A DNA stretch of 64,000 nt from Natroniella sulfidigena (GCF_023223645.1 NZ_JALKBY010000007.1:1-64000), one strand, 5' to 3'; shown: positions 1,846 through 20,915, counted from the stretch's first letter. The notes: generated by a model from the sequence alone, not told the origin. Made by a program: numbers and translations.

Positions 1846-3393
1846 CTAAAACATAATCTGACCCAACAAGCCAAGCTCAAAACCACTGAAATCATAATCT
1901 CCAATCTCAGCAAAGCGATAACCTGCTCTACCCTTAATTTGGACTCTATCGGTAATCTCTTCCTGGAATCTGTCACTAACAACTCCTAACTCAAAGCTGG
2001 CTCCAGGTTTAAAGATAAACCCAAAGTGTCTGTCCTGAATTCCTCCACTTCCATCAGTCTTAGTAAGCAGATACTGACCTGCAGCCAGATTAAGCTCCAA
2101 CCACTCAAGCAGTTGATAAGAAATAGTTCCCAAAACACCTGTAGTAGAGAGCTTGCGTTCTGCTTCCTCATCCAAGTCATCATAACTGAGTCCAAATCGC
2201 TCCAACTCCAAACCATAATTGATATCCTGGACTACTTCCAAAGGCAGATGCTCCCTAGCAAAATCAATCTGTTCTAAGCCTCTCTTAGCTCTAAGATAAA
2301 TTCCTAAACCTGAACTATTACTGCTACCACCTTGCTCCTCAATCTGATCATTAAACTCCTCTAAATCATAAAAATTATAGCTAAACCCTAAATCCAATTT
2401 CCAAGGCTGAAAGACAAGACTAGCTTCTTCTGTTGTTTCTCCATTAGCCAACACTTCAAAGTCAACCTCTTTAATCTGCTCCTCAGCCATCAATTCCAGT
2501 GTTCCTGAACCTGAAGCAATCGCTACTAAGGAAATTCTCCCTTGGTCATAGGAAGTAGAAACTATCTCTGCTACATCACCCCAGACCTGCCATTCAGGCT
2601 CTATCTCGTATTTCTCTCCGTACTGATCATAACCGGCTGCTCTAATTATGTAGCGTTGACCTTGATAAAACTTATCGGTCTCAAACTCCACCTCTATCTC
2701 TTCTAAATAAGGTTCTTCCCAACCTTCAAACTCGACTTCTCCTGTTCTGACATAAACTTCTTGCTGGGAAGGAGTAAACTCCCAACCCTCTTTCTCAATC
2801 CTAAGTTCAACAGCACCTAATAGCTCTTTTTTCTCCCAGTGGCCTTCTTCATCCGTCACAACTGAACTATAATCACCACTAAACTCTATCTCTGCCCCAC
2901 TGATAGGTTGACCTTCTCCGTCAACGACCTGGCCTCTTAGATCATGGAGCAATAATGAATCCTTTAGTTCAGGCAGAATATCTTCAATCATTCCTTCTAG
3001 AACCTCTTCCCTCTCTCCTGTGACATTGCTTGAATAAATAGTAGTTCCTTCACTGATATCTACCACTTCAAACTCCAGTCTAAAGAAAGAACCTCCTAAG
3101 TTGATCAAAATACCAGTAATTACAACATCAGCTTCCTGTGCTTCAGCTTCCTGAACCTGATCAACATCTTCTAGATCATCATCAGCCAAGATATCCTCAA
3201 TCTCATCAGCTGCAATAATCCTTAACTCCTCTCTAGGCTCCAACTCACCTAACAGAACATCTTCAAACTCAGAATCTTCCACCATAACCACCAAATCCAA
3301 GACCGAAGCTGCCTTAACCTCACTCCCGCTGACTATCAATAAACAAATAACTATAATTATTAGACTAGATAAAGTCTTGCTTAACTTATTCAT
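1846..3393 (-). CDS. Exported protein: periplasmic N-terminal part, carboxypeptidase-regulatory-like domain, C-terminal outer-membrane barrel-like part
   Basis: The 515-residue product starts with a Sec signal peptide (residues 1-29, cleaved near VKA-AS). Residues 30-150 are very acidic and alternate strand and helix, somewhat like CsgG/TolB-type periplasmic domains. Residues 155-215 (GQVVDGEGQPISGAEIEFSG) look like a carboxypeptidase-regulatory or Ig-like beta domain. From about residue 340 to the end the sequence has amphipathic alternating strands and ends in GLLGQIMF, with the terminal aromatic residue typical of outer-membrane barrels. This fits a diderm Firmicute. The function is unknown. 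A good SD (GGTGAGGGTGAG) precedes the ATG. Confidence 0.6.
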   Translation of the reverse strand: MNKLSKTLSSLIIIVICLLIVSGSEVKAASVLDLVVMVEDSEFEDVLLGELEPREELRIIAADEIEDILADDDLEDVDQVQEAEAQEADVVITGILINLGGSFFRLEFEVVDISEGTTIYSSNVTGEREEVLEGMIEDILPELKDSLLLHDLRGQVVDGEGQPISGAEIEFSGDYSSVVTDEEGHWEKKELLGAVELRIEKEGWEFTPSQQEVYVRTGEVEFEGWEEPYLEEIEVEFETDKFYQGQRYIIRAAGYDQYGEKYEIEPEWQVWGDVAEIVSTSYDQGRISLVAIASGSGTLELMAEEQIKEVDFEVLANGETTEEASLVFQPWKLDLGFSYNFYDLEEFNDQIEEQGGSSNSSGLGIYLRAKRGLEQIDFAREHLPLEVVQDINYGLELERFGLSYDDLDEEAERKLSTTGVLGTISYQLLEWLELNLAAGQYLLTKTDGSGGIQDRHFGFIFKPGASFELGVVSDRFQEEITDRVQIKGRAGYRFAEIGDYDFSGFELGLLGQIMF

Positions 3394-7731: not shown

Positions 7732-10002
7732 TTATAACCAATACGCCGTAAACCCATCCTCCTCAAACCGCTTGATCATATCAGCCAACTTCCCAGCTGA
7801 TTTAGGATAAGGTTTAATCTGATTTTCTCTAACATAATCAACAACTTCATCTCCAACTCTTACTGGACTCTCAGTTCCAGAATACTTCTTTACTCCCGAG
7901 GCAATAGCAAATAGATCTAACAGCACCCTCTTAATTACTCGAGAACTCCCCTGAATTCTTGGTAAGATCTTTTGCATCAATTGTAGATCAAAGGCTTGCT
8001 CAAAATCAAGTAAGCCATATTGCTGATTATACAACATATAAAAGCAGATCTCATCTCTGACCCGATACCCTATATGCAAATTAGCCTCTTCAAGAACCTC
8101 ATTGACCTCGATTAATTTAGCGACTACCTGTTCGATTAGCTGTTCATCTTCCTTGTTACAATCATTCAAAGTAATATACTCAGAGTTAAGAAAACTACTA
8201 TCAGCACTGATTTTAATCTCTTCCCCTGTCTGATCTAATCTAAAATTATCGAGCTTAACCTGTGAAAACTCAATTGTGTTGGCCCTATCTAAGACCTTTT
8301 TGCTGAAAGGGTGGGTCGTTTCATCCATATTGACCGTCCCTACAATAAAGAGATTATCTGATAGATAAATCCCAGCATATTCTTCCTCATCTTGCTCTGT
8401 AGTAAAGTCTTCAGCTTGTAATAATGGATCAGATTTAACCTCTCCTGCAACCTTGCTTCTCGTCTCCATCAAACTCAACAGATCACTGAAATAATACTCC
8501 ACCCGGGCCAAATTCATCTCATCAAGGCAGATAAAGTAGATATTATCTTGATCATTGTTGGCCCGTTTGATGATATCTATTATAGGGCCAGGGTTAAACT
8601 CTCCTTTAAGATCATTATAGCCTAGTAGATCAGAACCATCACTCCAATCTGGCCTAACAGGAATCAACTTAAATCTATTATTTTCACTTGTACAGCCGAT
8701 AGCCTCAGCAAAGAGCTGGACTAATTTAGTCTTTCCAGTTCCAGAGATACCTGCTAACAGTACAAATGGTTTAGTTTTAAGCGATAGGTAGAAATTTTTT
8801 ATCAACCCATCAGGATAACTGAACCCCTGTGCTGCAATATAATCTTCAATCCGCTTAACCTTCTCTGAAGTTTTAAGTTCAAAGTTGACAACTGGTTTAA
8901 GCTCAATTTGATAATAATAAGGTTGTCCTGTGGAATAAATTTCTAAATATTCACTCTTTTCTGGTGGTAAGTTGACCTGGGGTCGCTGTTGGCCCTCTTG
9001 AATTAATCTCTTTCGCTCTTGTTTGATATAGTGATAACTGAAGCTGAATTCTTCCTGTAGTAACTTCAATAACTCCTCATTGCTATCATAGCGAAGCTGT
9101 AAGGTAGTACTTTTGGTATCCCGATCAACATTTCTTAGTTTAGCTGTATATTCTCTTTCCTTGAACTTTAATTTGACTTCTTTAGTTTGGCCGGTTGTTA
9201 ATTGCTCTTGGTTGGCCTTGTAAAAATCTTGATGAGCACTAATTGGAATAGTAAGCCCCCAATTAAATAATGACCAGCCAACCTTCTTTTTAAGTAATAA
9301 TCTCTTTTGTTTAGCTTGGCCCCGATAGTTAGTCAGTTCAATGATCCTAAAGCCACGCTCTATTAAGTAATTGTTGGCTTCTCTACCTCCACTGAAGGAA
9401 GGTAAGTCATAATCACCAGCAATCCTAATGATCTCTTTGACAGGATATAGATCTTGGTTATACTGAATCGCATATTTATGATTTTTATTCTTGGTAAAGT
9501 TTTTCCACCGCTTTTTATCTCTATGTTCTCGATCGAATTCTTTTAAAGCTGCTAGTATCTCTTCTTTACTCATGTCAGGAATTGCCATATTGTAACCTCC
9601 AGCGTATTTAGTAAAATAATCTATCTTCTTCTCCTGAATGTACTCTTTTATCTCCACTATATCATCTCTAGATAGCTTCTGCCATAACTCTTGATCCATT
9701 TTAACAATATTATCAACTTCTTGCAAATGATCAATTTTAGCTAATGGCATCCGCTTGATATAATTTTTAACCCTTTTAAAACTGGAACTTTCAATCTCGG
9801 TTATTAATGAAGTAGCTCTGTCATCCTCTACCTGCAATCCTCTTTCTTTTCTTGCCCGATAAAAACTAATAAAGTAATCTACAAGCTGATCTAACTCCAC
9901 TTCACCGGCTACTACTAAATCAAAGAATGCTTGATAAACAATAAATTTATAAGATTTATTATAATTGCTCAAATCTTTCTTTATTATTTCTACTGAATCC
10001 AT
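7732..10002 (-). CDS. McrB-like AAA+ motor subunit of a Type IV restriction system
   Basis: The 756-residue product has a C-terminal AAA+ module. Walker A is GISGTGKTKL near residue 420, Walker B is LDEMNLARVEYYFSDLL near 492, and the sensor stretch is GTVNMDETTHPFS near 557. Together these are typical of the McrB/dynein-like clade. The N-terminal half contains KYAIQYNQDLYPVKEIIRIA followed by FSGGREANNYLI, a head domain seen in ScoMcrA-like restriction proteins that may read modified DNA. A beta-rich segment precedes the motor. The SD is AAGGAGG. The gene begins 12 bases after the MazG-like gene and is followed by the McrC-like gene, so the three form a likely operon. Confidence 0.85.
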   Translation of the reverse strand: MDSVEIIKKDLSNYNKSYKFIVYQAFFDLVVAGEVELDQLVDYFISFYRARKERGLQVEDDRATSLITEIESSSFKRVKNYIKRMPLAKIDHLQEVDNIVKMDQELWQKLSRDDIVEIKEYIQEKKIDYFTKYAGGYNMAIPDMSKEEILAALKEFDREHRDKKRWKNFTKNKNHKYAIQYNQDLYPVKEIIRIAGDYDLPSFSGGREANNYLIERGFRIIELTNYRGQAKQKRLLLKKKVGWSLFNWGLTIPISAHQDFYKANQEQLTTGQTKEVKLKFKEREYTAKLRNVDRDTKSTTLQLRYDSNEELLKLLQEEFSFSYHYIKQERKRLIQEGQQRPQVNLPPEKSEYLEIYSTGQPYYYQIELKPVVNFELKTSEKVKRIEDYIAAQGFSYPDGLIKNFYLSLKTKPFVLLAGISGTGKTKLVQLFAEAIGCTSENNRFKLIPVRPDWSDGSDLLGYNDLKGEFNPGPIIDIIKRANNDQDNIYFICLDEMNLARVEYYFSDLLSLMETRSKVAGEVKSDPLLQAEDFTTEQDEEEYAGIYLSDNLFIVGTVNMDETTHPFSKKVLDRANTIEFSQVKLDNFRLDQTGEEIKISADSSFLNSEYITLNDCNKEDEQLIEQVVAKLIEVNEVLEEANLHIGYRVRDEICFYMLYNQQYGLLDFEQAFDLQLMQKILPRIQGSSRVIKRVLLDLFAIASGVKKYSGTESPVRVGDEVVDYVRENQIKPYPKSAGKLADMIKRFEEDGFTAYWL

Positions 10003-13998: not shown

Positions 13999-14330
13999 TA
14001 AACTAAGTGCCTTTGACTATAAGTTAAAGGAGGATAGGGAATCAGGTGCAAATCCTGAACGAACCCGTCACTGTAACTAGCTATAAAAGCAATGAATAAT
14101 TAATAGTGAATAGTTGAAGTTCAAAGGCAAAATCAAAAACTATTAATTATTAACTGCTACAAGGCTTAGTAATACCACTTGGAGGAATTAGTAATTAGTA
14201 GCTAGTAATTAGTGATTGGTAATTAATAAATTATAAATAATTACTAGTCACTAATTACAAGTCACTATTTGCTAACCCCTAGGGAAGGTGAAGTCTTTTC
14301 AGCTAGAAGTCAGGAGACCTGCTTAGTTTA
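13999..14330 (+). promoter_or_regulatory. Cobalamin (adenosylcobalamin-type) riboswitch with two enlarged peripheral helices
   Basis: The core motifs appear in order: AGGTGCAAATCCTGAAC (14044-14060), AACCCGTCACTGTAA (14062-14076), CCACTT (14175-14180), GGGAAGG (14282-14288) and AGTCAGGAGACCTGC (14308-14322). P1 closes as TAAACTAAG (13999-14007) with CTTAGTTTA (14322-14330). The aptamer spans about 330 bases, where some 200 is usual. The excess lies in two hairpins: a perfect 13-bp stem (14095-14107/14139-14151) and a long imperfect palindrome of AGTAATTAGT-like words (14190-14268). A terminator follows at 14368, so ligand binding should stop transcription of the downstream oxidoreductase operon. 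Confidence 0.85.
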
Positions 14331-14367
14331 TTATAGCTTTTTAATTAAAAAGCTTGAGGATGATGGT

Positions 14368-14407
14368 AAAGTTCTCAGCCGTTAGCGGCTGGGGACTTTT
14401 TTTATTT
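14368..14407 (+). terminator. Terminator in the expression platform of the cobalamin riboswitch
   Basis: The stem AAAGTTCTCAGCCG / CGGCTGGGGACTTT (G-T pairs allowed) has a TTAG loop and is followed by a T-rich tract. It lies 37 bases after the aptamer and 33 bases before the first start codon. Confidence 0.85.
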
Positions 14408-14439
14408 TAAACTAAAAATATCAGTTGAGGAGGAGTAAA

Positions 14440-14703
14440 ATGCAAAAGAAAATCAAGATCAATTATGACCTCTGTCGAGGCTGTCGCAGGTGTGAAATAG
14501 CCTGTTCGTGGCGTCAAGAAGGAAGTGTCCAGCTAAAGCGAGCTAAGATAAAGATTAAAGTAAAAGATCAAGGTGCTACTGAATTACCTATCTTTGAGCA
14601 ACAGTGTAAAATAAGACCTTGCACTAAAGAGACTCCTAGATGTGTAACAGCTTGTAACTTTGGAGCACTAGAATTTATTGAAGGAGGAATTAATAATGAC
14701 TAA
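14440..14703 (+). CDS. Ferredoxin-like iron-sulphur subunit for the aldehyde oxidoreductase
   Basis: The start is the ATG at 14440 behind GAGGAGGAG; the TTG at 14425 is part of that SD region. The 87-residue protein has CRGCRRCEIACSW near the N-terminus. A second cysteine set follows (CKIRPCTKETPRCVTAC), consistent with two [4Fe-4S] clusters of the polyferredoxin type that pair with tungsten aldehyde oxidoreductases. It would pass electrons between the large subunit and cellular ferredoxin or other carriers. It overlaps the next gene by eight bases (ATGACTAA), a sign of translational coupling. Confidence 0.8.
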   Translation: MQKKIKINYDLCRGCRRCEIACSWRQEGSVQLKRAKIKIKVKDQGATELPIFEQQCKIRPCTKETPRCVTACNFGALEFIEGGINND

Positions 14704-16582
14704 AGAATCTTATGGTTGGCAAGGAAGAATTTTGTGGGTTGATTTAACAACAGAAGAGATCTCAACTACTCCACTGGACAAAGAATTGCGAGAAAAGTTT
14801 CTAGGACAATCTGGTATCAATGCCAAGTTATTATATGATAACCTAGAACCAGGTGTTGATCCTTTAAGTCCAGAAAATCATTTAATCTTTGGGGTTGGCC
14901 CGCTAACAGGAACGTTAGCCCCTTGTTCTGGTCGCTTCACTGTCACCTCCAAATCACCTTTAACCAATGCCTTTGGAGACTCTAACTGTGGTGGCCATTG
15001 GGGGCCAGAATTAAAGTATGCAGGCTATGATCATATCGTTATTACCGGCAAAGCTAAACGACCTGTCTTTCTATGGATTAATGACGACAAAATAGAACTA
15101 AAAGATGCTAGTAAGTTGTGGGGTAAGACTACCAATGAAACTGAAGATCAGATTAAAGAAGAGTTGGAGGATGAGAAGGTTCAAGTCGCCTCTATTGGCC
15201 CGGCTGGTGAAAATTTGGTCAACTTCGCGGCAATCATCTGTAATTATTCCCGTGCTGCTGGAAGAACAGGGATGGGAGCTGTCATGGGTTCAAAGAATTT
15301 AAAAGCAATAGCTGTGCGAGGGACTAACCGACTAACTGTAGCCCAACCTCAAGAATTCTCAGCTACAGTCTCAGACAGTGAAGAAAGCATCTTAACAGAT
15401 CCATTATATGAAATATCATCAACCTTTGGTACTCCTGCAATCATGAGAATGGCCCAAAGTCTCGGCTTTTTACCTACTAAAAACTTTCAAGAGTCAACCT
15501 TTGCAGGAGCTGATAAACTGAGTGGAGAAAGATTACTAGAAAAATACGTCACAAGACAGAAAGGATGTTTTAACTGTCCAGTCAGTTGTAACCGTTATTA
15601 TGAAGTAACTGAAGGTGAATATGAAGGCACTACCGGAGAAGGGCCAGAATACGAAAATCTAGGAGCTTTTGGTAGTAAATGTGGCAATGATAATCTACCT
15701 TCTGTCTTAAAGAGTAATGATCTAGCCAATAAACTAGGTCTAGATACAATCTCTACCGGAACTGTGATCGGTTGGGCAATGGAACTTTTCCAGCGAGGTA
15801 TATTGACTACTGCTGACACAGATGATTTAGATCTTGAGTGGGGTAATCATCAAGCGATCATCAAGTTAATCGAAAAAATTGCTTATCGGGAAGGACTAGG
15901 CGATATTCTAGCTTATGGAGCCCTTCAAGCTTCCAAAAAAATAGGTGACTCTGCTGAAGATTATGTAATACATATCAAAGGAATGGAGTATCCTTCTGTT
16001 GATGTCCGAGGAACAAAAGGAATGGCTTTAGGCTTTGCTGTCTCACCACGAGGAGCAGATCATTTAAAAGCTCTACCACTCTATGAAGTAGCTCCTGAAG
16101 TCTATCAGGAGGACATCAAAAAAGAACTCGGTATTGAAGTAGGAGAAGAATACTGGAAAAAATACGAAACTAAGCCAGAACTGATTGCTTGGCATGAAGA
16201 CTGGCATTGTATTGTCGATTCTTTAGGCTTATGTAAGTTAGAAGGAATTGCTCTCAAACCTCTCCGACCCTGCCACTTTACTGAGCTATTAGCAACTGCT
16301 ACTGGTTGGGAGATTACAGAAGAAGAACTGCGGACAATAGGAAAGCGAATTTGGAACTTGGAGCGATTATTTAATGCTCGCGAAGGATTTACTCGCCAAG
16401 ATGATCTTCCACCAGCAAGAATATTGAATGAACCGATTAGTACAGGCCCATCTAAGGGAGAAACTTTGGGCCAAGATAAGTTTGAAACTATGCTCGATCA
16501 ATACTACAAGCTTAGAGGCTGGACAGCCCAAGGGATTCCAAGCAAAGAAACATTAAAAGAGTTGGGGTTGGAGGTCGAATAA
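14696..16582 (+). CDS. Aldehyde ferredoxin oxidoreductase family protein (tungsten or molybdenum bis-pterin enzyme)
   Basis: The start is the ATG at 14696 after GGAGGAAT, which gives 628 residues. The N-terminal domain reads YGWQGRILWVDLTT and then GVGPLTGTLAPCSGRFTVTSKSPLT and NCGGHWGPELKYAGYD, the pterin-binding signature of AOR. CFNCPVSCNRYYEV (near residue 290) and a late DSLGLCK cysteine match the [4Fe-4S] ligands. The family interconverts aldehydes and carboxylic acids with ferredoxin; AOR-type enzymes in acetogens reduce acids to aldehydes. It belongs to an operon with an Fe-S subunit and a MoaD-like protein under a cobalamin riboswitch, an unusual regulator for this enzyme. The substrate is unknown. 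Confidence 0.88.
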   Translation: MTKESYGWQGRILWVDLTTEEISTTPLDKELREKFLGQSGINAKLLYDNLEPGVDPLSPENHLIFGVGPLTGTLAPCSGRFTVTSKSPLTNAFGDSNCGGHWGPELKYAGYDHIVITGKAKRPVFLWINDDKIELKDASKLWGKTTNETEDQIKEELEDEKVQVASIGPAGENLVNFAAIICNYSRAAGRTGMGAVMGSKNLKAIAVRGTNRLTVAQPQEFSATVSDSEESILTDPLYEISSTFGTPAIMRMAQSLGFLPTKNFQESTFAGADKLSGERLLEKYVTRQKGCFNCPVSCNRYYEVTEGEYEGTTGEGPEYENLGAFGSKCGNDNLPSVLKSNDLANKLGLDTISTGTVIGWAMELFQRGILTTADTDDLDLEWGNHQAIIKLIEKIAYREGLGDILAYGALQASKKIGDSAEDYVIHIKGMEYPSVDVRGTKGMALGFAVSPRGADHLKALPLYEVAPEVYQEDIKKELGIEVGEEYWKKYETKPELIAWHEDWHCIVDSLGLCKLEGIALKPLRPCHFTELLATATGWEITEEELRTIGKRIWNLERLFNAREGFTRQDDLPPARILNEPISTGPSKGETLGQDKFETMLDQYYKLRGWTAQGIPSKETLKELGLEVE

Positions 16583-16583
16583 G

Positions 16584-16874
16584 ATGACTATCACAGTCAA
16601 ATACTTTGCTACTTTCTGTCTCGAAACCAACTTTACCCAACAAGAAGAGTTAACCATAGAAGAAGATACAACAGTAATTGAGTTGATCGAGCTCTTAACT
16701 GCTAGATATGGAACAGGCTTTGAAAAACGTTTATTCACTGCTGAAAAAGAGCTAGATCCTTTATGTTGGATTATTGTTAATCAGCAACGCCTGAAAGAAA
16801 AGAATGACTTTCAACTGAAATTAAATCCTGGAGATACAATCTCCTTTTCACCTCCAATGTTAATGGGAGGATAA
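16584..16874 (+). CDS. MoaD/ThiS-like sulphur carrier for pterin cofactor synthesis
   Basis: The 96-residue ubiquitin-fold protein ends PPMLMGG. The terminal Gly-Gly is the site where MoaD-type carriers are adenylated and thiocarboxylated to supply dithiolene sulphur to molybdopterin. The stretch ELTIEEDTTVIELIELL and the LNPGDTISFSPP end fit the fold. It starts one base after the stop of the oxidoreductase gene, so it probably serves the cofactor of that enzyme. MoaD-like genes often accompany AOR genes. A terminator follows directly. Confidence 0.85.
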   Translation: MTITVKYFATFCLETNFTQQEELTIEEDTTVIELIELLTARYGTGFEKRLFTAEKELDPLCWIIVNQQRLKEKNDFQLKLNPGDTISFSPPMLMGG

Positions 16875-16879
16875 AACCT

Positions 16880-16911
16880 GCAGGGGCTTATTATAAGCCT
16901 CTGCTCTTATT
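16880..16911. terminator. Terminator between the convergent oxidoreductase operon and dprA-like gene
   Basis: The stem GCAGGGGCTTA / TAAGCCTCTGC (16880-16890/16894-16904) is followed by TCTTATTTA. It ends against the stop codon of the leftward dprA-like gene, so it can serve both directions. Confidence 0.75.
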
Positions 16912-18362: not shown

Positions 18363-18478
18363 CTCTTATCCGGAGTGGTGGAGGGACTGGCCCGATGAAA
18401 CCCGGCAACCAGTAGCAAAATGACAAATGCTACAGTGGTGCTAATTCCTACAGAAGTTAATCTTCTGGAAGATAAGAG
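18363..18478 (+). promoter_or_regulatory. SAM-I (S-box) riboswitch
   Basis: The conserved S-box pieces follow in order: CTCTTATCCGGAGTGGTGGA, GGGACTGGCCCGATGAAACC, CGGCAACC, GGTGCTAATTCC and GATAAGAG. The terminal strands pair as CTCTTATC/GATAAGAG (P1). The antiterminator strand TAAGAGAAG (18473-18481) can pair with CTTCTCTTA (18504-18512) inside the terminator stem, so SAM binding, by holding P1, should release the terminator. It controls the homocysteine methyltransferase gene. Confidence 0.95.
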
Positions 18479-18628: not shown

Positions 18629-20191
18629 ATGAGTCAATTATTAGAAAGATTAAAAGAAGAAGTATTAATCTTAGATGGAGCAATGGGGACTGAATTACAA
18701 AACAAAGGTTTAGAGGTTGGGAATTGTCCTGAAAAATTGAATTTAACCCATCCTGATGTATTACAGGAGATCCATACTAGTTATGTAGAGGCCGGAAGTG
18801 ACATTATTCAAACCAATACCTTCGGGGCCAACAGTATTAAGCTAGCCAAGTATGGCTTGAGTGAAGAACTAGAAGAGATCAATACTACTGCTGTCAAATT
18901 AGCTCAAGAGGCCGCAACTGAGAATACACTCATCTCTGCCTCAATTGGCCCTACTGGTAAATTATTCGAACCAATGGGTGTTCTATCATTTGAAGAAGCT
19001 TATCAAGTCTTTGCCCAACAGGCTGAAGTCTTAGCAGCAGCAGGAGCAGATTTGATCAATATCGAAACGATGATCGATTTACAAGAAGCAAAAGCAGCTC
19101 TGATTGCCGTTAAAGAAAATACATCATTACCTGTCATCTGTAACTTAACCTATGAGTCGGGCCAACGGACAGTGACCGGTACCGACCCTGCAAGTGCTAT
19201 TACCGTCTTAGAAGCAGCTGGCGCAGATATCATCGGAGCCAACTGTGGCCTTGGCCCAGCAGAATTGGCTGAGATCATCAATATCATGGGCCAACAGACA
19301 GCTAGCTTTTTAGCAGTCCAACCAAATGCTGGATTACCTGTCTTAGATGAAAATAACCAAACTATCTTCCCTATGGAAGCTGAAGAGATGGCCAGCTATG
19401 GAGCAGAGTTCGTTACAGCAGGAGCAAATATCATTGGTGGCTGTTGTGGCTCAAATCCAGATTATATTCGCTTATTAAAAGCAGAGCTTAAAGATCTCAA
19501 ACCTACATCAAGACCTAAAGCAAGAATAACAAAGTTAGCTAGCCGTAATCAACAACTGAACCTTAAACAAGAAAAACCACTAATTATTGGAGATAAGATC
19601 GACTCTACTAAGCCAACAGACTTAGCCACAGAACTAAAAAACAATAAGACTAAATTACTTGGCCAAGCAACTACTGCTCAAGATCAAGCAGGTGCAGATA
19701 TTATCAGCTGTAACCTCTCTAGTTTAACTGAACCAGAACAGATTAAAAAAATAATTAATACCGTTCAAATGAGAACTAGACTACCGTTGGCCCTTAAATT
19801 AGACAAACCGGAGCTGTTAGAGGTTGCCTTACAATCAATAGTGGGCAAACCATTAGTCCAATTAGTTCATCCTGACCAAAAAGAGATATTATCTTTAGCT
19901 AACAAATATGGAGCAGCTATTCTAATCCCAACTGTAACTACAGAAAAAGAAATTAGAGAAGAAAAAATATTGACTGCTGTACAAAATAATCTTGAACATT
20001 TAACAGACTTTGGTTTACCACAAGAAGAAGTTATAATCGAATTACCAGCTATTAAAGATAGCAATGAACAGCTCTTACTAACCATTAAAGAAGAGTTCAA
20101 CATATTAACCGCTCTCAAAACTAATAATAAAACAGAATTAATAAATACTAATCCAGACCTCTTAATTTTAGATCCAACTGAAAAGAAGTAA
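18629..20191 (+). CDS. Short MetH-like homocysteine S-methyltransferase with degenerate pterin-like C-terminal domain
   Basis: Residues 1-290 form an intact Hcy methyltransferase barrel: LDGAMGTELQ, QTNTFGANSIKL, and zinc-binding cysteines in NCGLGP (about 205) and GGCCGS (about 271-272). Residues 315-515 follow the outline of a pterin-binding (DHPS-like) barrel (LIIGDKIDST, QAGADIISCNL), but the usual GERIN, DxN and PLxxDS signatures are replaced. The cobalamin-binding and activation domains of full MetH (about 1200 residues) are absent. It probably makes methionine using a separate corrinoid protein or methyl donor. A SAM-I riboswitch controls it, consistent with methionine synthesis. Confidence 0.8.
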   Translation: MSQLLERLKEEVLILDGAMGTELQNKGLEVGNCPEKLNLTHPDVLQEIHTSYVEAGSDIIQTNTFGANSIKLAKYGLSEELEEINTTAVKLAQEAATENTLISASIGPTGKLFEPMGVLSFEEAYQVFAQQAEVLAAAGADLINIETMIDLQEAKAALIAVKENTSLPVICNLTYESGQRTVTGTDPASAITVLEAAGADIIGANCGLGPAELAEIINIMGQQTASFLAVQPNAGLPVLDENNQTIFPMEAEEMASYGAEFVTAGANIIGGCCGSNPDYIRLLKAELKDLKPTSRPKARITKLASRNQQLNLKQEKPLIIGDKIDSTKPTDLATELKNNKTKLLGQATTAQDQAGADIISCNLSSLTEPEQIKKIINTVQMRTRLPLALKLDKPELLEVALQSIVGKPLVQLVHPDQKEILSLANKYGAAILIPTVTTEKEIREEKILTAVQNNLEHLTDFGLPQEEVIIELPAIKDSNEQLLLTIKEEFNILTALKTNNKTELINTNPDLLILDPTEKK

Positions 20192-20270: not shown

Positions 20271-20915
20271 ATGAGAATTCCAGAACATATAGGAATCATT
20301 CCTGATGGTAATCGAAGATGGGCCAAAAGTAAAGGACTAAGTAAAGAAGAAGGTTATGCGCATGGACTCAAACCAGGTTTAGATGTATTTAAACTCTGCC
20401 AGGAGGTTGGAGTTAAAGAATTAACTTTCTATGGTTTTACAGTAGATAATACTAAAAGACGTTCCGTTCAAACCCAAGCCTTTACTAAAGCATGTATTGA
20501 AGCTGTTAAGATCATTGCTCAAGAAGAGGCTTCAATTTTAGTGGTCGGTAATACAGATTCTCCTATGTTTCCCAAGGAGTTATTACCATATACAACACGA
20601 ACAACTACAGAGGAAGAACAAATTAAGGTCAATTTCCTTGTTAATTATGGCTGGCATTGGGATTTAGGTAATCTAGATCAAAATGATAAGAGATCTAAGC
20701 AGGGAGTAATTAGCTCCTTAAAATCAAAAGATATTTCTCGAATTGATCTAATTATTCGCTGGGGTAATAGACGAAGGCTTAGTGGCTTTTTACCAGCTCA
20801 ATCTGTTTATTCTGACTTTTATGTTGTTGAGGAGTATTGGCCCGACTTTAAGGAAGAACATTTTTATCAAGCACTCAACTGGTATGATCAACAAGATATC
20901 ACTCTAGGAGGATAA
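20271..20915 (+). CDS. Undecaprenyl-diphosphate synthase-like (cis-isoprenyl transferase) paralogue
   Basis: The 214-residue protein starts MRIPEHIGIIPDGNRRWAK, with the catalytic Asp of the DGNRRWA motif, followed by a FYGFTVDNTKR region. Near the end, IRWGNRRRLSGFLPAQSVYSDFY corresponds to the RTSGExRLSNFLLWQ motif of UppS but with Gly-Asn-Arg in place of Ser-Gly-Glu. UppS makes the C55 lipid carrier for peptidoglycan at the membrane face. The changed motifs and shorter length suggest a second, specialised prenyl synthase rather than the housekeeping enzyme. It is followed 23 bases later by a helical protein gene. An SD-masking hairpin lies directly upstream. Confidence 0.75.
   Translation: MRIPEHIGIIPDGNRRWAKSKGLSKEEGYAHGLKPGLDVFKLCQEVGVKELTFYGFTVDNTKRRSVQTQAFTKACIEAVKIIAQEEASILVVGNTDSPMFPKELLPYTTRTTTEEEQIKVNFLVNYGWHWDLGNLDQNDKRSKQGVISSLKSKDISRIDLIIRWGNRRRLSGFLPAQSVYSDFYVVEEYWPDFKEEHFYQALNWYDQQDITLGG

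Follow-up and report, generated by a model that had tools for sequence, protein, structure and literature searches.

Results

A corrinoid riboswitch precedes a tungsten oxidoreductase operon

The window analysed here, a stretch of 64,000 nucleotides from Natroniella sulfidigena, carries on its plus strand a three-gene operon behind a long structured leader. A ribosome binding site read from the sequence (GAGGAGGAG, 14427-14436) is followed by a gene for a WorS-like Fe-S subunit of 87 residues (14440-14703), which has a CxxCxxCxxxC motif, Fer4 matches and syntenic homologues. Next comes the 628-residue large subunit of a tungsten oxidoreductase of the aldehyde oxidoreductase (AOR) type (14696-16582; PF02730 and PF01314), with profile-search E-values of 3e-87 for AFOR_N and 5e-143 for AFOR_C and with 1aor as its nearest solved structure. 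The last gene codes for a MoaD/ThiS-like carrier, WorX, that ends in GG (16584-16874; TIGR01687, 48.6 bits; PF02597). The three genes are contiguous without gaps, and a terminator-like hairpin (16880-16904) closes the operon. The genome has one further AOR and four cobalamin riboswitches overall, three of the latter being located within or close to the B12 cluster of contig C3.

The leader contains a full-length aptamer of the cobalamin (corrinoid) riboswitch family RF00174 (13988-14340), which cmscan matches over model positions 1-189 at 47.5 bits (E 8.5e-9) against a gathering cut-off of 31.5. The Moco family RF01055 has no cmscan match anywhere in the window, where the only regulatory RNAs of known families are a SAM riboswitch and the RF00174 element. 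This bears out the initial annotation, which had placed the aptamer in the cobalamin and not the Moco class. The L5 loop ACCCG (14063-14067), a putative kissing-loop partner, matches the UCCCG/GCCCG L5 loops of PMC10653944, and the conserved 3' core motif AAGTCAGGAGACCTGC lies at 14307-14322. Two AT-rich hairpins are inserted into the aptamer, one in a peripheral arm at 14088-14158 (inverted repeat of 20 nt, 90% complementary) and one in the arm between CCACUUGG and CCUAGGGAAGG at 14183-14280 (inverted repeat of 43 nt, 79% complementary). Together the inserts total ~200 nt and leave the conserved core intact; the lowered score of this aptamer is attributable to them. Similar AT-rich inserts occur in several other Natroniella cobalamin riboswitches, including ones in the same genome and in cbi clusters, and the hairpins at 14088-14280 may represent a small mobile repeat of such riboswitches in the genus. 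Judged by its sequence the element is a corrinoid riboswitch of AdoCbl type, with the ligand assigned by family.

As had been annotated, the aptamer is followed by a terminator, here an intrinsic one (14368-14399; fold -20.8 kcal/mol) with a 14-bp stem and a U tract, and the genes for the Fe-S subunit, the AOR and the MoaD-like carrier come directly after it. We checked whether the riboswitch reads into a different gene and found the Fe-S gene to be the first, with none between. The riboswitch almost certainly controls this operon.

Further genes lie downstream of the operon in the window. One is an open reading frame of 520 residues for a homocysteine methyltransferase (18629-20191) that is preceded by the SAM riboswitch (18363-18478; 92.2 bits); Pfam finds no B12-binding domain in the protein, and its second half is weakly CdhD-like. 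Another codes for a UppS-like cis-prenyltransferase paralogue (20271-20915), and a 57% homologue of it immediately follows the AOR operon of HGW-Firmicutes-14 (L061, 12358-13038).

The riboswitch accompanies a single clade of AORs

We next surveyed related AORs for cobalamin riboswitches upstream of their operons, as the initial annotation had proposed. When 398 genomes of the phylum were searched with the window AOR, one group matched at 63-71% identity and the remainder at or below 47%, and a search over 84,980 species returned the same group at 59-95% identity. The closest relative of the window organism is Natroniella acetigena, the AOR of which is 95% identical. An RF00174 element was present upstream on the same strand in all 17 genomes with this AOR subfamily, which span two phyla. 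They comprise the window, N. acetigena, G001, HGW-Firmicutes-14, two Thermincola, Desulfallas, a Peptococcaceae, a Thermacetogenium, SKS1.bin126, G097, G102, Desulfatitalea, a Syntrophaceae, a Desulfohalobiaceae and two Desulfonatronospira; a further clade member (L113), the locus of which is cut by a contig end, is left out of this count. The distance from riboswitch to AOR is mostly within 600 bases and reaches ~3.5 kb where ECF transporter genes intervene. As the arrangement recurs in 16 genomes besides that of the window, it is not due to chance.

In a tree of 81 AORs the riboswitch-bearing enzymes form one clade (SH-aLRT 100), with a riboswitch at 15 of 15 AORs inside the clade and at 0 of 66 outside it, the latter figure coming from a scan of every fetched locus for the motifs and from cmscan of 32 of these loci. 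The absence outside the clade is not explained by genomes that are poor in such riboswitches, since 37 of 50 outside-clade genomes carry cobalamin riboswitches elsewhere. One outside-clade AOR, in a member of the Tissierellales (L087), has a Moco riboswitch (9308-9416) just upstream, which is the expected type. The leader sequence had no match among plasmids, and a search of open-access (PMC) papers found no earlier report of a cobalamin riboswitch paired with an AOR.

P13 and the terminator compete for one strand

The stretch that follows the aptamer forms the hairpin P13, UGAGGAU[GAUGGUAAA]GUUCUCA, which includes loop L13 (14355-14377; fold -5.6 kcal/mol) and is the predicted antiterminator. 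The 3' arm of P13 is also the 5' arm of the terminator, which makes the two hairpins mutually exclusive. When the growing transcript is folded, P13 is present up to base 14390 and the terminator from base 14395. Until the 3' arm of the terminator is made P13 is the sole structure that holds its 5' arm, and no separate antiterminator was seen by folding in the window leader, where the 5' arm of the terminator has no alternative pairing other than the one in P13.

By a rule-based test this strand sharing, together with an L13 of the form GA[UA]GGNAAA, was called in 17 of 17 AOR riboswitches as opposed to 19 of 1640 dinucleotide shuffles; since the rows are phylogenetically related, the shuffle figures should not be read as odds for independent events. 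The P13 helix is also supported by covariation across 29 sequences, with 92% paired and a score of 0.771 relative to at most 0.21 for slid versions. In most of the riboswitches L13 presents UGG opposite CCG of L5, and in three it presents AGG, which may allow a short kissing pairing. The cbi-cluster riboswitches of the window's own genome (L001 and L002) have a separate antiterminator of the GGUAAUUAG/CUAAUUAUC type before the terminator, which is the repressing layout. L001 (G000 C3:28192-28529) lies upstream of an aldo/keto reductase that has a C-terminal 4Fe-4S domain.

The same layout is found at lower-ligand operons

When the other 58 cobalamin riboswitches of the order were analysed, the P13/terminator-sharing layout was called in 10, of which two (L172 and L187) are weak and probably false. 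Of the eight solid calls, seven cover every bzaA/bzaB operon of the order and the eighth is at a lone Zn-alcohol dehydrogenase. Outside the order the layout was observed at bzaAB of G195, G097 and G288, with two copies in tandem in G195. Specifically, the latter locus (L212; G195 C15, minus strand) has tandem shared-strand cobalamin riboswitches before bzaAB with core motifs at 3067 and 3310 (reverse complement). The N. acetigena operon has the order ADH, TrpD-like, bzaA, bzaB, cobT and a CblT-like S component. A threonine dehydrogenase-like Zn-ADH and a TrpD-like phosphoribosyltransferase also occur in riboswitch operons of lower-ligand type at L062 (2294-4740) and L157 (2491-4656), and in N. 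acetigena this pair adjoins bzaAB.

An orphan ECF S component is encoded between the riboswitch and the AOR at three loci (L061, L062 and L064), two of which also have the A and T subunits. Relatives of this S component were found in other cobalamin-riboswitch operons with the same layout (L162, L163, L165, L166 and L167; for L167 the layout was assigned by eye, the script having missed it). Most of these operons also encode a VdcC-like UbiD hydroxyaryl decarboxylase, a VdcB-like UbiX and caprolactamase/hydantoinase-like HyuA/HyuB. Sequence searches of Pfam, NCBIfam and PDB gave nothing on the identity of the S component. A Foldseek search with its AlphaFold model returned S-component folds, the best being 5edl (E 0.02, probability 1.00), so that on the predicted structure an S-component fold is plausible.

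Discussion

The sign of the switch

Two layouts have been described (Procknow et al., PMC10653944). One, that of the repressing metE riboswitch, keeps P13 apart from the terminator and forms its antiterminator between the 3' side of P13 and the 5' side of the terminator. In the other, that of Alkalihalobacillus halodurans cobT, one strand is common to both hairpins, P13 itself serves as antiterminator, and corrinoid switches expression on (PMC10653944). The leader in the window has the common strand of the A. halodurans cobT type and lacks the separate antiterminator of the repressing platform; the AOR switch is thus most simply read as activating. To our knowledge the A. halodurans cobT element is the only activating corrinoid riboswitch that has been experimentally proven; a point against an ON sign is that the cobT riboswitch of S. 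ovata represses. With one riboswitch as precedent, we consider that the AOR riboswitch is probably of the ON type with corrinoid as activator. Bound corrinoid would allow the L5-L13 kissing loop to hold P13 until RNA polymerase passes the terminator, upon which the Fe-S/AOR/MoaD operon would be made. When corrinoid is absent the 14-bp terminator would instead displace P13 and transcription would stop.

This sign is the opposite of that in the initial annotation, which had the enzyme made when B12 is scarce; that view is probably wrong given the strand common to P13 and the terminator. It would require an ordinary repressing switch in which corrinoid stops transcription and the AOR is a stand-in or an electron sink under B12-poor conditions. 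Almost all studied corrinoid riboswitches are indeed repressing (PMC10653944), and the presence of a terminator after the aptamer would suit such a mechanism. However, the strand is common to P13 and the terminator in all 17 AOR riboswitches with no separate antiterminator seen, the repressing layout is the one exhibited by L001 and L002 of the same genome, and the clade is found in acetogens and sulfate reducers that have no common need for an acid-reducing electron sink. We therefore regard repression as unlikely. The annotation's further suggestion, that the enzyme replaces a B12-dependent route or disposes of reducing power, is left unsupported, as the layout otherwise marks lower-ligand operons and the clade extends to sulfate reducers. 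A switch of neither sign would operate if the inserts had ruined the window aptamer and left the operon constitutive. The window score is the lowest of the AOR set and ~200 nt are inserted, but the core, L5, P13 and the terminator are all intact, N. acetigena has the same layout and similar inserts at 62.1 bits, and comparable inserts occur in cbi-cluster and other cobalamin riboswitches of the genus. Decay of the riboswitch is thus very improbable.

A candidate role in lower-ligand supply

The repressing layout occurs on ring-building and transport genes, and the activating layout on lower-ligand, ECF/UbiD and AOR operons. It is this division that leads us to read the AOR as acting in lower-ligand supply. 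Specifically, the AOR would belong to a regulon, outlined by the bzaA-bzaB-cobT-cblT and ECF/UbiD/UbiX operons, concerned with providing or completing the aromatic lower ligand of cobamides, and it would be switched on once incomplete or complete corrinoid is present. Its most likely reaction would be the interconversion of an aromatic aldehyde and an acid, with ferredoxin as partner via the small Fe-S subunit. The link between the AOR and the lower ligand consists of the common riboswitch layout and the common ECF S component only. The AOR operon of the window stands alone, with no bza, cobT or ars gene in it, and bzaAB is absent from most AOR-clade genomes outside the Halobacteroidales. The lower-ligand role is put forward as a tentative assignment.

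An activating switch could also serve an AOR with another task. The enzyme might clear acetaldehyde, which CbiG releases in anaerobic corrin-ring synthesis. CbiG is found in 15 of the 17 AOR-clade genomes, and gene presence of this kind speaks weakly in favour. Against this, the quantity of acetaldehyde is tiny, CbiG is distributed far more widely than the AOR clade and was not found in G207 (a clade genome that is 94% complete), and the AOR is unlinked to cbi operons, the riboswitches of which show the other layout. A role in acetaldehyde removal is accordingly improbable. Oxidation of aldehydes produced by AdoCbl-dependent enzymes such as diol dehydratase or ethanolamine ammonia-lyase would account both for the corrinoid activation indicated by the layout and for an enzyme of aldehyde type. 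Diol dehydratase is however present in only two and EutB in only three of the 17 clade genomes, and the window organism, N. acetigena and G001 are without either, which makes this source of substrate highly improbable. For the preferred explanation as a whole, which has a corrinoid riboswitch of the activating layout at its centre, we estimate a probability of roughly one half, and a lower one for the lower-ligand role by itself.

A broader and slightly more speculative proposal than the lower-ligand role itself is that widespread natural ON-type corrinoid riboswitches, with P13 as antiterminator and an L13 of GAUGGNAAA, govern lower-ligand supply in anaerobes, and that a dedicated tungsten AOR clade is a new enzyme of that supply. 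If the layout does denote an ON switch, the B12 riboswitch would have activation as a second standard mode, recognisable in genomes by a scorable sequence signature, and genes for finishing the cofactor would be set apart from those for building the ring. The proposed explanation, if true, would also tie an AOR to the completion of B12-like cofactors in cells, offer for the first time a hint from regulation at what an uncharacterised clade of tungsten oxidoreductases does, and caution against taking each B12 riboswitch to mean 'on when B12 is scarce'.

Comparison with known systems

The enzyme has the features of the WOR/AOR family, with AFOR_N, AFOR_C and the four [4Fe-4S] cluster cysteines, and the equivalents of Pf Thr243, Glu313 and His448 are conserved in the clade. 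It differs at the equivalent of Pf Tyr427, which none of the 15 clade members retains: 14 have Val there and one has Thr, whereas Tyr is the commonest residue outside. The Thr243/Glu313/Tyr427/His448 set, of which three of four are thus retained, characterises most aldehyde-oxidising members but does not extend to the whole family. Membership of the clade in the WOR/AOR family therefore stands; the replacement of Tyr427 suggests from sequence that the substrate may be unusual. The clade is further distinguished by its predicted corrinoid switch, as compared with the Moco riboswitch upstream of the L087 AOR. In the tungsten oxidoreductase (WOR) scheme of 2026, Class II consists of WorL and WorS, with WorX (PMC13328260), and the window likewise has a large subunit, one small Fe-S subunit beside it and a ThiS-like protein. 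A role has been defined for 5 of the 92 WOR clades (PMC13328260).

Relative to RF00174 riboswitches of the AdoCbl type, the window RNA has the same full-length match, core, L5, CCACU...GGGAAGG peripheral element and terminator-type platform. It differs in its long AT-rich hairpin inserts and in controlling a tungsten AOR, a target not found in open-access literature. The AOR operon has its riboswitch layout in common with the bza/cobT lower-ligand operons, as represented in the same genome (G000 C3), and differs from them in its gene content, which includes neither bza nor cobT. The window RNA also resembles the A. halodurans cobT riboswitch, as judged by comparison with its published layout description (PMC10653944). 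The two have in common the strand shared by P13 and the terminator, the L13 UGG facing the L5 CCG and the absence of a separate antiterminator. They differ in that the target is cobT in A. halodurans, where the ligand preference is for cobinamide, and an AOR here.
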